Shown here: positions 15,307 through 22,860 of the stretch, in pieces
Layout of the letters: the number at the start of each line of letters is the position of its first letter
Numbering within the stretch: the first letter of the stretch is position 1
Assembly: GCF_900637185.1 (NCBI RefSeq)
Contig: NZ_LR134352.1
Span: 2,656,001 to 2,720,000 of the forward strand
Direction: 5' to 3'
From: Nocardia asteroides
GTDB taxonomy: Bacteria > Actinomycetota > Actinomycetes > Mycobacteriales > Mycobacteriaceae
DNA length: 64,000 nucleotides
Translations under genes and position numbers: made by a program
The notes under the pieces: model-generated
The model's input: the letters and a program-made list of their open reading frames with translations, nothing else
The model's database searches: none
Told to the model about the DNA's origin: nothing

Positions 15307-15382
15307 ACCTGCGCATCGTCCGGCAAACGTCGGCCCGTGGACCTAGGGTGTGGGCACGGCTGGACTAGACGAGGGAGTGGCG

Positions 15383-16624
15383 GTGGCTGCTGCGCTGGTG
15401 AAGGGGCAGAACGCGGGGATCGCAGCCGGGGAGGTGGTGCTGAGCGTGCGCGGCGGGGTGGCGGCGGATCTGTCGGCACTGCTGGTGACCGCGGCGGGCA
15501 CCGTGCGCTCCGACGCGGACTTCGTGTTCTTCAATCAGCCGGTGGCACCGGGGGTTCGGTTGGACGGGCCGGGGATCGCCGTCACCTTCGCCGGAGTGCC
15601 CGCGGCGATCGAGCAGATCCGGGCGGTGATCACCGTTGCGGCCGAGGGGGATACGTTCGGCTCGGGGTCATCGCCGGTCGCCTCGGTGGCCGACCGGGCG
15701 GGAAACAGCCTGTACGAGTACGTGATCGACGGTCTCGACAGCGAGTCGGTGGTGATCGCGCTCGAGCTGTATCGGCGCGGTGACCAGTGGAAGGTGCGCG
15801 CCGTCGGGCAGGGGTACGCCGGCGGGTTCGCGGATCTGGTGACCGACCACGGCGTCAGCGTCGACGACGAGCCGGAAACCGGGGCGGTACCGGAGATCCG
15901 GACCGTGCCCGGGGAGGCGGCCCTCTCGTTCGAGAAGCGGCAGAAGCTCGACCTGCGCAAACGCGAGGTCGCGAAGGTGCTCATCGACGAGCGCGCGTTC
16001 GGGGTACGCGCCCGGGTGGTGCTGGTGATCGACAAGACCGGCAGCATGCAGAAGCTGTACCGCGGCGGCACCGTGCACCGGGTGGTGGAACGGATGATCC
16101 CCATCGCCACCCAGCTCGACGACGACGGCACCCTCGAGGCGTACCTGTACGCCCTCACCTACGCCCGGCTGCCCGACATCACCGTCGCCGGCGCCGACCG
16201 GTGGACCCAGACCTACCTCCACCTCACCGGCACCCACGACGGCATCGACTACGACGCCATCGGCGGCCGCAACGACGAACTGCCCGTCATGCGCGCCGTC
16301 ATCGACACCCTCACCGCCACCACCGCACCCACCCTGGTCCTGTTCTTCACCGACGGCGGCTTCGCCAAGAAACGCGACATCGCCACCCTGATGCGGGAAG
16401 CCAGCCACCTGCCTGCCTTCTGGCAGTTCATCGGCCTCGGCAGAGCCAACTTCGGCGTCCTGCGCACCCTCGACGAACTCGACGGCCGCCGCGTGGACAA
16501 CGCCGGCTTCTTCGCCGTCGACGACATCGACCACACCGACGACCCCACCCTCTACCGCCACCTCCTCACCGAATTCCCCGCCTGGCTCCGCGCCGCCCGA
16601 GCCGAGGGCATCGTCAGCGAGTAG
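15383..16624 (+). CDS. TerD domain plus vWA domain protein (TerF-like)
   Basis: 413 residues from GTG 15383, with GAGGGA 6 bases upstream (GTG 15377 is an alternative). An N-terminal TerD domain (about 1-165) has the calcium-site-like SDADFVFFNQP segment and LELYRRGDQWKVRAVGQGY. A C-terminal von Willebrand A domain (about 215-410) has the MIDAS motif DKTGSMQ and the TLVLFFTDGG strand. TerD proteins bind calcium and act in tellurite, chemical-stress and phage-inhibition systems; vWA partners act in metal-dependent assembly. It stands alone without terB/terC/terE neighbours. Confidence 0.82.
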   Translation: MAAALVKGQNAGIAAGEVVLSVRGGVAADLSALLVTAAGTVRSDADFVFFNQPVAPGVRLDGPGIAVTFAGVPAAIEQIRAVITVAAEGDTFGSGSSPVASVADRAGNSLYEYVIDGLDSESVVIALELYRRGDQWKVRAVGQGYAGGFADLVTDHGVSVDDEPETGAVPEIRTVPGEAALSFEKRQKLDLRKREVAKVLIDERAFGVRARVVLVIDKTGSMQKLYRGGTVHRVVERMIPIATQLDDDGTLEAYLYALTYARLPDITVAGADRWTQTYLHLTGTHDGIDYDAIGGRNDELPVMRAVIDTLTATTAPTLVLFFTDGGFAKKRDIATLMREASHLPAFWQFIGLGRANFGVLRTLDELDGRRVDNAGFFAVDDIDHTDDPTLYRHLLTEFPAWLRAARAEGIVSE

Positions 16625-19734: not shown

Positions 19735-20007
19735 TCAGAGCATGGCGTTCATGATGGTGCCCGCGCTGGTGGCGACCGCGCCGCCGATCATCGCGCCCGC
19801 GATCATCTTCGGCGACTCGAGCCCGCCGCCGGTCCACTTCTCCCAAGCGAACCTGCCGCCCGCGTAGGTGATGGCGATGACGCCCGAGAGCAGGATGAAC
19901 CAGGTGAAATAGCGCACCAGCTGCAAGATCTTGTCCGACATCGGGGGTGCTTCGGGCGTCGGATTGCCGATCTGCGCCAGGGTATCGGTGACGGCGGCCA
20001 GAATCAT
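19735..20007 (-). CDS. two-helix small membrane protein, paralogue A
   Basis: 90 residues from ATG 20007 (an in-frame GTG lies at 20019). A polar N-terminus with GNPTPEAPPMSDKI precedes a first helix (about 34-54, TWFILLSGVIAITYAGG), the loop RFAWEKWTGGGLESPK, and a second helix (about 68-88). The layout resembles VirB2/TrbC pilin-like proteins of conjugation systems, or a small pore-former, but no maturation signal or secretion neighbour is seen. It is a clear paralogue of the divergent gene at 20213, sharing most residues in the loop and second helix. Confidence 0.72.
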   Translation of the reverse strand: MILAAVTDTLAQIGNPTPEAPPMSDKILQLVRYFTWFILLSGVIAITYAGGRFAWEKWTGGGLESPKMIAGAMIGGAVATSAGTIMNAML

Positions 20008-20212: not shown

Positions 20213-20503
20213 ATGAGCATCATCCTGACGTCGATGGCCGATACTGTCACGACGTTCGCGCAGGTCGGCAACCCCACACCCGAGGCGCCGCCGCTGTCGG
20301 ACAAGATCATGCAGATGGTCCAGTACCTGACCTGGTTCATGATCCTGTCCGGTGTGCTGGCCATCACCGTCGCCGGCGGTAAGTTCGCCTGGGAGAAGTG
20401 GAACGGCAGCGCCATGGAGTCGCCGAAGATGATCGCGGGCGCCATGATCGGCGGCGTGGTCGCCACCAGCGGCGGCACCATCATGAACGCGATTCTCGGC
20501 TAG
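20213..20503 (+). CDS. two-helix small membrane protein, paralogue B
   Basis: 96 residues, ATG 20213 preceded by GGGGAG. The shared core is GNPTPEAPPLSDKI, then a first helix (TWFMILSGVLAITVAGG), GKFAWEKWNGSAMESPK and MIAGAMIGGVVATSGGTIMNA. The Gly-rich second helix suggests oligomer packing. It is divergent from paralogue A with a 205-bp gap, and its stop shares a CTAG with the stop of the convergent TerD-HNH gene. The function is unknown; a VirB2-like or holin-like role is only a hypothesis. Confidence 0.75.
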   Translation: MSIILTSMADTVTTFAQVGNPTPEAPPLSDKIMQMVQYLTWFMILSGVLAITVAGGKFAWEKWNGSAMESPKMIAGAMIGGVVATSGGTIMNAILG

Positions 20504-22260
20504 ATCCGGGCGCCCTTGGCGCGGTTGCAGGCCCGGCACAGGATCTGCAGGTTCGCCGCGCTCGTCGCGCCACCCCGGCTGAGCGGGATGACGTGGTCGA
20601 ACTCCAGGTAGTGGCCGTCGCCGCATTCCACGCAGCGGCCGCCGTCGCGTTGCCACACCTGGGCTTTCACGTCCTGCGGGATGCTGCGGCTGTCGCGTTG
20701 GCCGGGCGTGAGGACCAGGCGCTTGGCTACCCGCAGCGCGCCTTCCAGCGCGGCCGCCACATAGTCGGGGTCGGTCACGCCGAAGGTGGCGCCGCCGCGC
20801 GCCGAGGTCGCCGCGAGGACCACGGTGCCGTGCTCGGGGTGCACCGAAACGACCCGGTTCCACGGCAGTTCGATACCGGTGCCGTCGCCGACGAACCGGA
20901 GCTTCTTGGAGCTGCCGATCAGCCTGCCCTCGGTGTTGCGTGGGCCGCGCGCGAGCATCCGGATGTGCACGGCGGGCAGGTCCAGGTGCACCCTTTCCTC
21001 CGGGTCCAGGTGCAGGCCGGGGGTGTCGATGGTGGGCAGTTCGCCTGCCCGTAGCCGGGACAGGGTGCGGCCGCGATGCATCCGGCGGCGCAGGTCCTCG
21101 ACCACCGGGCCGGTCAGGGCGAGTTCACCGACCACGTGCTCGAACGCGTCGAGCTCGTCGGCGAACACCTCGCCGTCGGCGAAGGCGAAGGCGACCATGC
21201 GCTCCACCTGGGTCAGCCCGGCCTCGCGCAGCACCTCGCGGCCGAGCTCCTCGTCGATGCGCTGGTAGCGCAGCGACGCCCACACCTGGATCCACTCCTC
21301 GGACAGGGTGCCCGGTCCGGTGAGTACCCGGCGCGCCCGGGTACGCCAGTGCGTGAGGAATTCCTCGACCTCGTCCGCGCACGAGCGGCATCGGCCGTGC
21401 CCGCCGAAGAGTTTGCGCCGCAGCGGGTTGCCGCAGCGTGGGCAGCGGGTCCGGTGATCCTGGCGGTGCGGGCGGGTGCTGGTGGTCCACTCGTCGCCGT
21501 CCCACCAGCGCAGCTGGTCGGGGACCTGCGGGTCGGGATGCCAGTCGGCCAGTTCCGGGTTCGGCGGTGGTGGGGGCGGGACATCGATGACGCGGCGGGT
21601 CAGCGCGGGCGGACGTGGATGACCCGGGTAGGTGTCGGGAGCCTCACCCGCGGTGTCCTGCGGAAACGGGCTCAGCTCCCTGCGCGATGCGGTGGCCGCG
21701 GCCTGGCGGGAAGGCGCGGCCGGCACGGGGCGGTCGCCACCGGCTCGCCCGGCGCCGGGTTCGTCCACCGTGACACCGAATTCGGTCGCCAGTCCGGCCA
21801 GCCCACCCGCCCAGCCCTGCCCGATCGCCCGGAAGCGCCACTGCCCGTCGCGCCGGTAGAACTCGCCGAACATCATCGCCTGCACGTCCTCGATGCCGTC
21901 GAGGGTGAAGCGGGCGACCGGGCCGTCGGCGGCCTGCACCGTCAAGGTGAGCCCGGTGAGCTCATCGAAGGTGCCCTCGTCCAGCGACGCGCTCACCACG
22001 ATCCGCGCGACCTCCGCCTCCGTGCGCGGCAACGACACGCTCAGCCGCGCGGTGCCGGGCGCGGGCTCCTGATCCAGGGTCACCGCCTGCGAGGCGTGCC
22101 GTGGCGCGTTGAAGAACACGAAATCCCGGTCGCCGCGCACCAGCCCCGACTCGGTGACCAGCAGCGCGTGCGCGTCGACGGCATGCGCCGAGCGCCATGA
22201 AAGGACCACGGCGAGAAGCGATGTCGGGACCGGCGCGTGCGCGCCCTTACGGAGTTCCAT
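20500..22260 (-). CDS. TerD-DUF2510-zinc ribbon-TerB-like-PH-like-HNH endonuclease
   Basis: 586 residues from ATG 22260. Domains in order: TerD (about 1-172, with RGDRDFVFFNAPRH); a Pro-rich linker; DUF2510 (about 255-285, WHPDPQVPDQLRWWDGDEWT); a four-Cys zinc ribbon (CPRCG...CRSC, about 290-315). Next is a helical segment with AFADGEVFADELDAFEHVV resembling TerB (about 370-420). A beta-rich GRLIGSSKKLRFVGD...VVLAAT stretch resembling a PH-like domain follows (about 450-515). Last is an HNH nuclease (about 530-586) with CVECGDGHYLEFDHVIPLSRGG and CRACNRAKG. Known Ter systems link calcium-binding TerD to DNA processing and stress or phage response; this fusion puts sensor and nuclease in one chain. 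Confidence 0.82.
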   Translation of the reverse strand: MELRKGAHAPVPTSLLAVVLSWRSAHAVDAHALLVTESGLVRGDRDFVFFNAPRHASQAVTLDQEPAPGTARLSVSLPRTEAEVARIVVSASLDEGTFDELTGLTLTVQAADGPVARFTLDGIEDVQAMMFGEFYRRDGQWRFRAIGQGWAGGLAGLATEFGVTVDEPGAGRAGGDRPVPAAPSRQAAATASRRELSPFPQDTAGEAPDTYPGHPRPPALTRRVIDVPPPPPPNPELADWHPDPQVPDQLRWWDGDEWTTSTRPHRQDHRTRCPRCGNPLRRKLFGGHGRCRSCADEVEEFLTHWRTRARRVLTGPGTLSEEWIQVWASLRYQRIDEELGREVLREAGLTQVERMVAFAFADGEVFADELDAFEHVVGELALTGPVVEDLRRRMHRGRTLSRLRAGELPTIDTPGLHLDPEERVHLDLPAVHIRMLARGPRNTEGRLIGSSKKLRFVGDGTGIELPWNRVVSVHPEHGTVVLAATSARGGATFGVTDPDYVAAALEGALRVAKRLVLTPGQRDSRSIPQDVKAQVWQRDGGRCVECGDGHYLEFDHVIPLSRGGATSAANLQILCRACNRAKGARI

Positions 22261-22371: not shown

Positions 22372-22860
22372 ATGACGAACCCGAAGAAGCGGGGACGCGC
22401 GCCGGAGCCGCCGCCGCAGGCCCGCAAGGTGCCGGGCGCCGATCTGCTCTCGGCGGCCCAGGCGGCGGTGGGCGCCGCGCAGACCGCGGCCGGGCAGGCC
22501 ATCGACGCGGCGCAGCAGACGGCGGGCTACGCCTTCGACGCGGCGGTGCGGTTGCCACCGGCCTCCGCGCAGCTGGCCGCGCAGCTGCCGGACCTGGTGG
22601 AGAACCTGTCGATCGCCGTCGACCGGCTCAACAGCACCATCGACCGCCTCGACCGCACCCTCGCCCTGGCCGACCCGGTCTTCGCCACCTACGACCGGCT
22701 GCTGCCCCGGCTCGAGGCGATGATCTCGCTGGGCGAGGACCTGTTCGGCGCGCTCGCGAAGCTGCCGGGCGTCGGCCTGCTCGGGCGCATCACCGGCCGG
22801 GCGGGCGAGGAACCGCCCGCCGAACCGGAGAAGCGCAAGCGTCCGGGAACCCGGCGCTAG
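22372..22860 (+). CDS. hypothetical Ala-rich helical protein
   Basis: 162 residues. A basic Pro-rich N-terminus (MTNPKKRGRAPEPPPQARK) is followed by an Ala/Gln-rich amphipathic helix (about 25-70), then heptad-like repeats with IAVDRLNSTIDRLDRTLALAD suggesting a coiled coil, and a basic C-terminal tail. The composition resembles phasin-like or nucleoid/surface-associating helical proteins, but no family is recognised. Divergent from the TerD-HNH gene with a 111-bp gap; its stop overlaps the convergent monooxygenase stop through a shared CTAG. Confidence 0.55.
   Translation: MTNPKKRGRAPEPPPQARKVPGADLLSAAQAAVGAAQTAAGQAIDAAQQTAGYAFDAAVRLPPASAQLAAQLPDLVENLSIAVDRLNSTIDRLDRTLALADPVFATYDRLLPRLEAMISLGEDLFGALAKLPGVGLLGRITGRAGEEPPAEPEKRKRPGTRR

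Follow-up and report, generated by a model that had tools for sequence, protein, structure and literature searches.

One chromosomal gene of Nocardia asteroides was found to encode, in a single intact chain, a TerD domain, a DUF2510 segment, a zinc ribbon, a TerB-like helical segment, a PH/GRAM-fold domain and an HNH nuclease domain. The protein is tentatively read here as a single-chain nuclease effector of the Ter pathway that would act on incoming (or damaged) DNA, a reading that is given a probability of roughly 0.4. Ter input domains joined to a nuclease in one chain that is intact across the genus would provide a direct handle on the way in which the Ter system converts stress or phage signals into an output. 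The gene was studied in a window of 64,000 nucleotides, i.e., the whole stretch of DNA that was analysed, which comes from a genome of 6.98 Mb in a single contig; all positions in Table 1 are those of the window.

Table 1. Positions of the TerD-HNH gene, its domains and two neighbouring genes in the window
Feature	Positions	Strand	Basis or remark
Whole gene, TerD-DUF2510-zinc ribbon-TerB-like-PH/GRAM-HNH	20500..22260	(-)	586 codons + stop
TerD domain, residues 4-161	21778..22251	(-)	Pfam PF02342, E 9.4e-30
DUF2510, residues 240-267	21460..21543	(-)	Pfam PF10708, E 8.9e-7
Zinc ribbon, Cys 273, 276, 291, 294	21379..21444	(-)	four cysteines, conserved
TerB-like helical segment, residues 292-404, motif D362...E369	21049..21387	(-)	profiles, motif
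PH/GRAM-fold domain, residues 410-519	20704..21033	(-)	
HNH nuclease domain, residues 543-585, C-terminus	20506..20634	(-)	Pfam PF01844, E 1.4e-12
TerD-vWA (TerF-like) gene, possible partner	15377..16624	(+)	PF10138, E 1.9e-77; PF02342, E 1.5e-22
162-residue gene, possible partner	22372..22860	(+)	divergent, 111 bases from TerD-HNH start

The frame runs without interruption on the minus strand from an ATG at 22260 to a stop at 20500-20502. The original prediction of one chain of domains in a frame of 586 residues was borne out to the exact coordinates, as were the TerD start and the C-terminal HNH domain, both of which exceed their Pfam cut-offs (103.9 bits against 25.3 for TerD, PF02342; 48 bits against 21.4 for HNH, PF01844). 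The TerD structure 2kxt in the PDB also matches the protein (E 4.3e-19). A profile search of each segment, which had been proposed as a check, succeeded for TerD, DUF2510 and HNH, all above the Pfam cut-offs, and fell short for the zinc ribbon (E 0.32 only) and for the stretch between the zinc ribbon and HNH, where Pfam gave no match, TerB (PF05099) included. A fast-evolving linker (residues 166-239) precedes DUF2510.

The four zinc-ribbon cysteines are invariant in all 15 aligned rows, and the CxxC-CxxC pattern is present in 126 of the 127 listed proteins. The two acidic residues of the TerB-like motif, D362 and E369, are likewise invariant in 15 of 15 rows, with a stricter form of the D...E pattern in 108/127. 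The assignment of this segment as TerB-like, which had been made in the original prediction, stands on sequence profiles: one Nocardia relative matches Pfam TerB at E 0.29, in a set of ten relatives six match it at E<=1, one of them above the cut-off (L169, 1.3e-8), and the family profile matches 2ou3 at E 5.5e-6, a match built from two weak stretches. The window protein itself gave no Pfam TerB match. A model of the segment was helical (pLDDT 95), and fold comparison of this model returned no clear relative. The next domain shows the PH/GRAM superfold, with seven strands and a C-terminal helix in the PH order. At the C-terminus, the HNH residues (Cys pairs, DH, N, CN) are all present, and the family profile matches the HNH domains of McrA, Cas9 and IscB structures.

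Intact HNH residues had been claimed from the outset, and in fact all 127 listed proteins retain the HNH pattern; two of them (P0123 and P0127) are short records that lack TerD. It is also kept in 26 of 29 more distant proteins (P0128-P0156; P0157-P0167 were left out of the count); two of the three misses are records that stop before HNH is complete, and the third has one residue changed. One record in this range, P0139, comes from a contig of 1696 bases and couples a peptidase-like start to half of a core; it was excluded as probably chimeric.

Selection was followed in six ortholog comparisons, which gave dN/dS ratios of 0.05-0.15 for TerD, 0.13-0.22 for the zinc ribbon plus TerB, 0.00-0.22 for PH and 0.01-0.19 for HNH. 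The linker plus DUF2510 gave 0.25-0.85 and had the highest dN in each of the six comparisons. No internal stops were found in the six orthologs, and the window gene is under purifying selection. Erosion of the architecture was rejected for the main gene, with its intact frame and the HNH pattern in every listed protein, and none of the outcomes that had been named as fatal to the original prediction (no TerD, no HNH, only eroded copies) was encountered. A second copy of the architecture in the same genome (L066:7062-8567), about 58% identical in the core, is without the first half of TerD and retains HNH above the Pfam cut-off.

The original prediction had also proposed a chemical or calcium sensor, and the calcium part of this proposal was not sustained. 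The acidic loop of canonical TerD is reported to bind calcium, from structure work on KP-TerD. Two canonical TerD proteins of the N. asteroides genome carry this loop (GDN..GxGxGDDE), and there is a gap at its place in the window TerD. The loop was found in none of the 127 listed proteins (125 of them showing the TerD strand) and in none of four fusions from other groups, as against 4 of the 17 TerD matches in this genome. Since the acidic loop is missing, calcium sensing by the fused TerD was rejected as the default, and an arm that binds a protein or a ligand is more likely here than a calcium switch. A TerD gene that does have the acidic loop lies directly upstream of a TerD-HNH gene of the second Nocardia group (L159:7110-7616; see below for the groups).

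The 17 TerD matches of this genome include fusions with vWA, with AIM24 (L073:5122-6531), with a second TerD and with an exonuclease plus BRCT, which shows TerD to be a commonly reused arm here. The last of these, an exonuclease (RNase_T)-BRCT-TerD protein (L071:12980-14773), is a second case of TerD joined to a nucleic-acid enzyme. The densest TerD cluster, three TerD genes within 13 kb, is about 2 Mb from the window gene, which is not part of a Ter operon; a single TerD-vWA gene lies about 4 kb away, and its vWA half is found near the TerD-HNH gene in 12 of 26 Nocardia loci. pabAB is nearby in 19 of the 26 loci, i.e., in 19 of the 20 with a full upstream flank, the exception (L022) falling in the second group of the tree, and the divergent 162-residue gene, to which Pfam gave no match, is present in 18 of the 26 (18 of the 20 with a full upstream flank). 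The Nocardia TerD-HNH gene is a vertically kept core gene at a fixed place. No defence island was seen around it, and PADLOC gave no whole-protein match, all of its 14 matches at E<=1 being to the HNH end only (best E 5e-5). Two small hydrophobic proteins, similar to each other and encoded in opposite orientation beside the gene (19735-20007, minus strand, and 20213-20503, plus strand), occur in 14/26 loci and match no Pfam family above the cut-off.

The nearest named protein is from N. asteroides (96%), followed by those of other Nocardia (88%). With a profile of the zinc ribbon, TerB and PH parts, the core was recognized in 144 of 150 Nocardia genomes. Across the family it was present in 61 of 401 genomes (51 Nocardia and 10 from seven other genera). 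A phylum sample of 396 genomes gave four with the core, three of them Nocardia, counting this genome, and one in which the match was weak and partial. Among the ten copies outside Nocardia, TerD is present in L146, L147, L150, L153 and L154 and absent from L149, L151, L152 and L106, and L148 is interrupted inside HNH. Wider relatives were found in Rhodococcus, a Mycobacterium and Acidobacteriota, in one protein of Abditibacteriota, which has TerD, and on two Deinococcus replicons, each with a TerD-bearing homolog. The zinc ribbon-TerB-PH-HNH core was thus found to occur without TerD as well.

On a tree of 54 cores, 28 with TerD and 26 without, at least five gains or losses of TerD are required, four of them forced by well-supported branches, with L169 (which joins a long prophage branch), the Abditibacteriota protein and L146 on long branches of unsure placement; the minimum number of such events is thus four or five. 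The Nocardia copies form two groups, the window gene belonging to the one at the fixed place and the second including the partly truncated L066 and the prophage-borne L162. Forms of one core that differ in having or lacking TerD offer natural controls for the contribution of this domain.

A link to the Ter system was found in Deinococcus. On pRadio2 of D. radiophilus, the homolog is a member of a Ter operon, as the first gene in the run TerD-HNH, TerD, vWA, TerD, TerD, DUF475, which is divergent from genes for ATP-grasp, phosphoribosyltransferase, HAD, AIM24, StiP-domain and aldolase-family proteins. According to PMC7824862, the Ter system is involved in phage resistance and includes phosphoribosyltransferase, HAD and TerD proteins and the vWA protein TerF. 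A tblastn search of D. radiodurans with an actinobacterial core (P0131) recovered a homolog at 34% identity over 92% of the query (E 1e-38); annotated as a 'TerD family protein', it has TerD, cysteine pairs and TerB-like, PH-like and HNH parts in the same order as the Nocardia protein. None of the 15 other annotated features in the 17 kb stretch around it is named as a ter gene. In the proteins P0168 and P0169, TerD and HNH score above the cut-off and TerB below it. The idea of a Ter module wired to a nuclease, put forward in the original prediction, draws support from the D. radiophilus operon, the vWA half near the Nocardia gene and the prophage relatives described next, with the calcium sensor removed from it.

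Viral contigs were scanned with the core, and the best 80 of 134 relatives were analysed; a search of the same kind with the window protein gave no relative. By domain models, among whose source sequences were L165, L166, L167 and L172, TerD-TerB-PH-HNH was found in three of these 80 loci (L162, L167, L172), TerB-PH-HNH in five (L163-L166, L168), TerB-HNH in L182 and PH-HNH in L170 and L171, and L169 has a frame (L169:7359-8720) with doubled TerB-like segments, a PH-like part and HNH. The remaining loci among the 80 have an HNH match only, and 84 open frames in the 80 match the HNH model alone. Against PHROGs, 19 of 20 neighbours of the viral-contig relatives were matched, among them an integrase and a head protein beside L162, endolysin and tail beside L163, integrase and tail beside L164, anti-repressors, tail, neck, portal and head beside L167, and an anti-repressor and baseplate beside L172.

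Six phage records, all from Acinetobacter, match the flank of L167, with no more than 5% of this flank covered, and the flank of L172 matches 170 records from many hosts, the best being an Acinetobacter phage (38% covered, 67% identity). Used as queries, the L167 and L172 proteins recovered no loci but each other and one HNH-only locus. L162 groups with Nocardia in the tree, and L163 and L164 have long stretches in common with L149, which has the same genus code as a genome encoding a named Rhodococcus protein. The rare relatives therefore probably sit in prophages of Acinetobacter, Rhodococcus and Nocardia, as far as the putative hosts can be read from these matches. In the Rhodococcus cases the gene adjoins the integrase, close to one boundary of the predicted prophage, and these copies could be just outside it; the sequence common to L163 and L149 begins about 25 bases upstream of the gene and continues, with gaps, through the integrase and tail genes, but L164 also has the upstream gene in common with L149. 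A prophage-like region of L149 encodes, after its TerD-less HNH gene, a separate DUF2510 protein (L149:9586-10248), a domain that is fused in Nocardia. TerD-bearing prophage copies are real but rare.

Taken as an effector of the Ter pathway, the TerD-HNH protein may be a nuclease that is switched on by stress or phage attack. The HNH domain would be the working end that cuts DNA, held and positioned by the zinc ribbon-TerB-PH core, whose PH/GRAM fold might dock on a partner protein or the inner membrane. TerD would serve as an accessory input arm, through which the nuclease would be coupled to other Ter proteins or to some Ter signal that is not calcium, and TerD and the TerB-like part would both receive their input from the Ter machinery. 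Once the Ter complex had been triggered by chemical stress or by the entry of phage DNA, the nuclease would be released or recruited to cut incoming phage or plasmid DNA or damaged DNA. DNA as the substrate, docking at the membrane, the nature of the signal and defence as the benefit are all presumptive here. This reading is favored by the intact frame, domains and catalytic residues, by the low dN/dS in TerD, PH and HNH, by the Ter operon and prophage contexts of relatives, by the repeated gain and loss of TerD, and by the TerB-like protein of the anti-phage system Shango, as described in part of PMC10250203. Against it stand the fixed core position in Nocardia, unlike that of most mobile defence genes, the distance of some 2 Mb to the TerD cluster, the lack of named ter neighbours within 17 kb in D. 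radiodurans, the confinement of PADLOC matches to the HNH part, and the rarity of viral TerD-bearing copies (three loci in the best 80 of 134).

A bolder form of the idea, which we regard as possible but rather doubtful, is that the zinc ribbon-TerB-PH-HNH unit is a portable nuclease core (of actinobacteria, Acidobacteriota, Deinococcus, Abditibacteriota and a few prophages) into which a TerD without the calcium loop was plugged several times. It would then be a one-gene, membrane-docked entry-exclusion nuclease that prophages used against rivals and that became fixed as a core gene in Nocardia.

Alternatively, the protein could be a nuclease of the DNA-damage or desiccation response, whose Ter part would sense oxidative or chemical damage and whose HNH domain would process damaged host DNA, with no role against phages. 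The presence of the family in D. radiodurans and D. radiophilus and of a core gene in Nocardia would fit this, the fixed locus and purifying selection fit a housekeeping function, and a table in PMC1274311 gives resistance to DNA-damaging agents as a possible effect of the TerZ family. The upstream regions, scanned with consensus motifs, argue against it. No mycobacterial-type SOS box was found in 20 of them, the best having 3-5 mismatches compared with 3-6 in 200 shuffles of the window's region, and no RDRM with <4 mismatches was found in the 20 regions or in 2 Deinococcus regions (a scan run without a shuffle control). In a text search of the available part of PMC8533742, on the RDR regulon, the terms TerD, HNH, tellurium and DRA0057 were absent. 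With an SOS scan no better than shuffles and no RDRM below 4 mismatches, SOS/RDR regulation was rejected; carriage by prophages would also be left unexplained, and a damage response is considered unlikely.

The Ter genes are known from tellurite resistance, and this background, together with cysteine sites in the core that would bind metal, could suggest a protein of chemical (metal or oxidant) stress with a nuclease fold used for regulation, its HNH domain acting on RNA or doing no more than binding metal. The catalytic residues are, however, kept in all 127 listed and 26 of the 29 further proteins, and the family profile matches the HNH domains of the McrA, Cas9 and IscB structures, which makes this distinctly improbable. 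Finally, a selfish or homing-type HNH gene, fixed after it had acquired Ter domains, is very improbable: HNH frames of the same type are indeed common in viral contigs (the 84 HNH-only frames in the best 80 of 134 loci), but in those aligned rows whose end is complete a large conserved core terminates in the HNH domain, the Nocardia neighbourhood is fixed, and a homolog occurs in a Ter operon.

Among known systems, the McrA-type HNH endonucleases (e.g., 6ghc) include the solved structure that gave the family profile its best HNH match (E 1e-7). Modified bases are recognized in McrA by a reader of its own; here the match is confined to the HNH part, and no match to a modified-base reader was seen. 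Shango, which contains a TerB-like protein and inhibited several phages, differs in being made of three genes (TerB-like, helicase, ATPase), with no TerD, PH or HNH part named in the available portion of PMC10250203. The Ter stress-response and anti-phage system (Anantharaman, Iyer, Aravind 2012) is closer, with TerD and TerB as ligand-binding domains and with vWA, phosphoribosyltransferase and HAD partners, as summarized in part of PMC7824862, and the D. radiophilus copy lies inside such an operon. In contrast, the Nocardia gene lies outside the TerD cluster, its output is a fused HNH nuclease and its TerD is without the acidic loop. A literature search by terms, over the portions of text available, did not find the Nocardia gene, the PH and TerB parts, the TerD-less forms or the prophage copies, and the 2012 Ter paper may well describe TerD-HNH or TerB-HNH fusions.

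The TerD-endonuclease fusion is not new as a kind, for DRA0057 of D. radiodurans is in print as an endonuclease fused to the TerDEXZ/CABP family (in the available part of PMC10614293, citing Makarova 2001). The D. radiodurans homolog found here is presumably DRA0057, and the window protein shares its layout, i.e., TerD followed in one chain by the zinc ribbon-TerB-PH-HNH core with its cysteine pairs in the same order. The Nocardia protein adds DUF2510 and a long linker, and its gene is chromosomal and lies beside pabAB, with the actinobacterial core being 34% identical to that of the Deinococcus protein.
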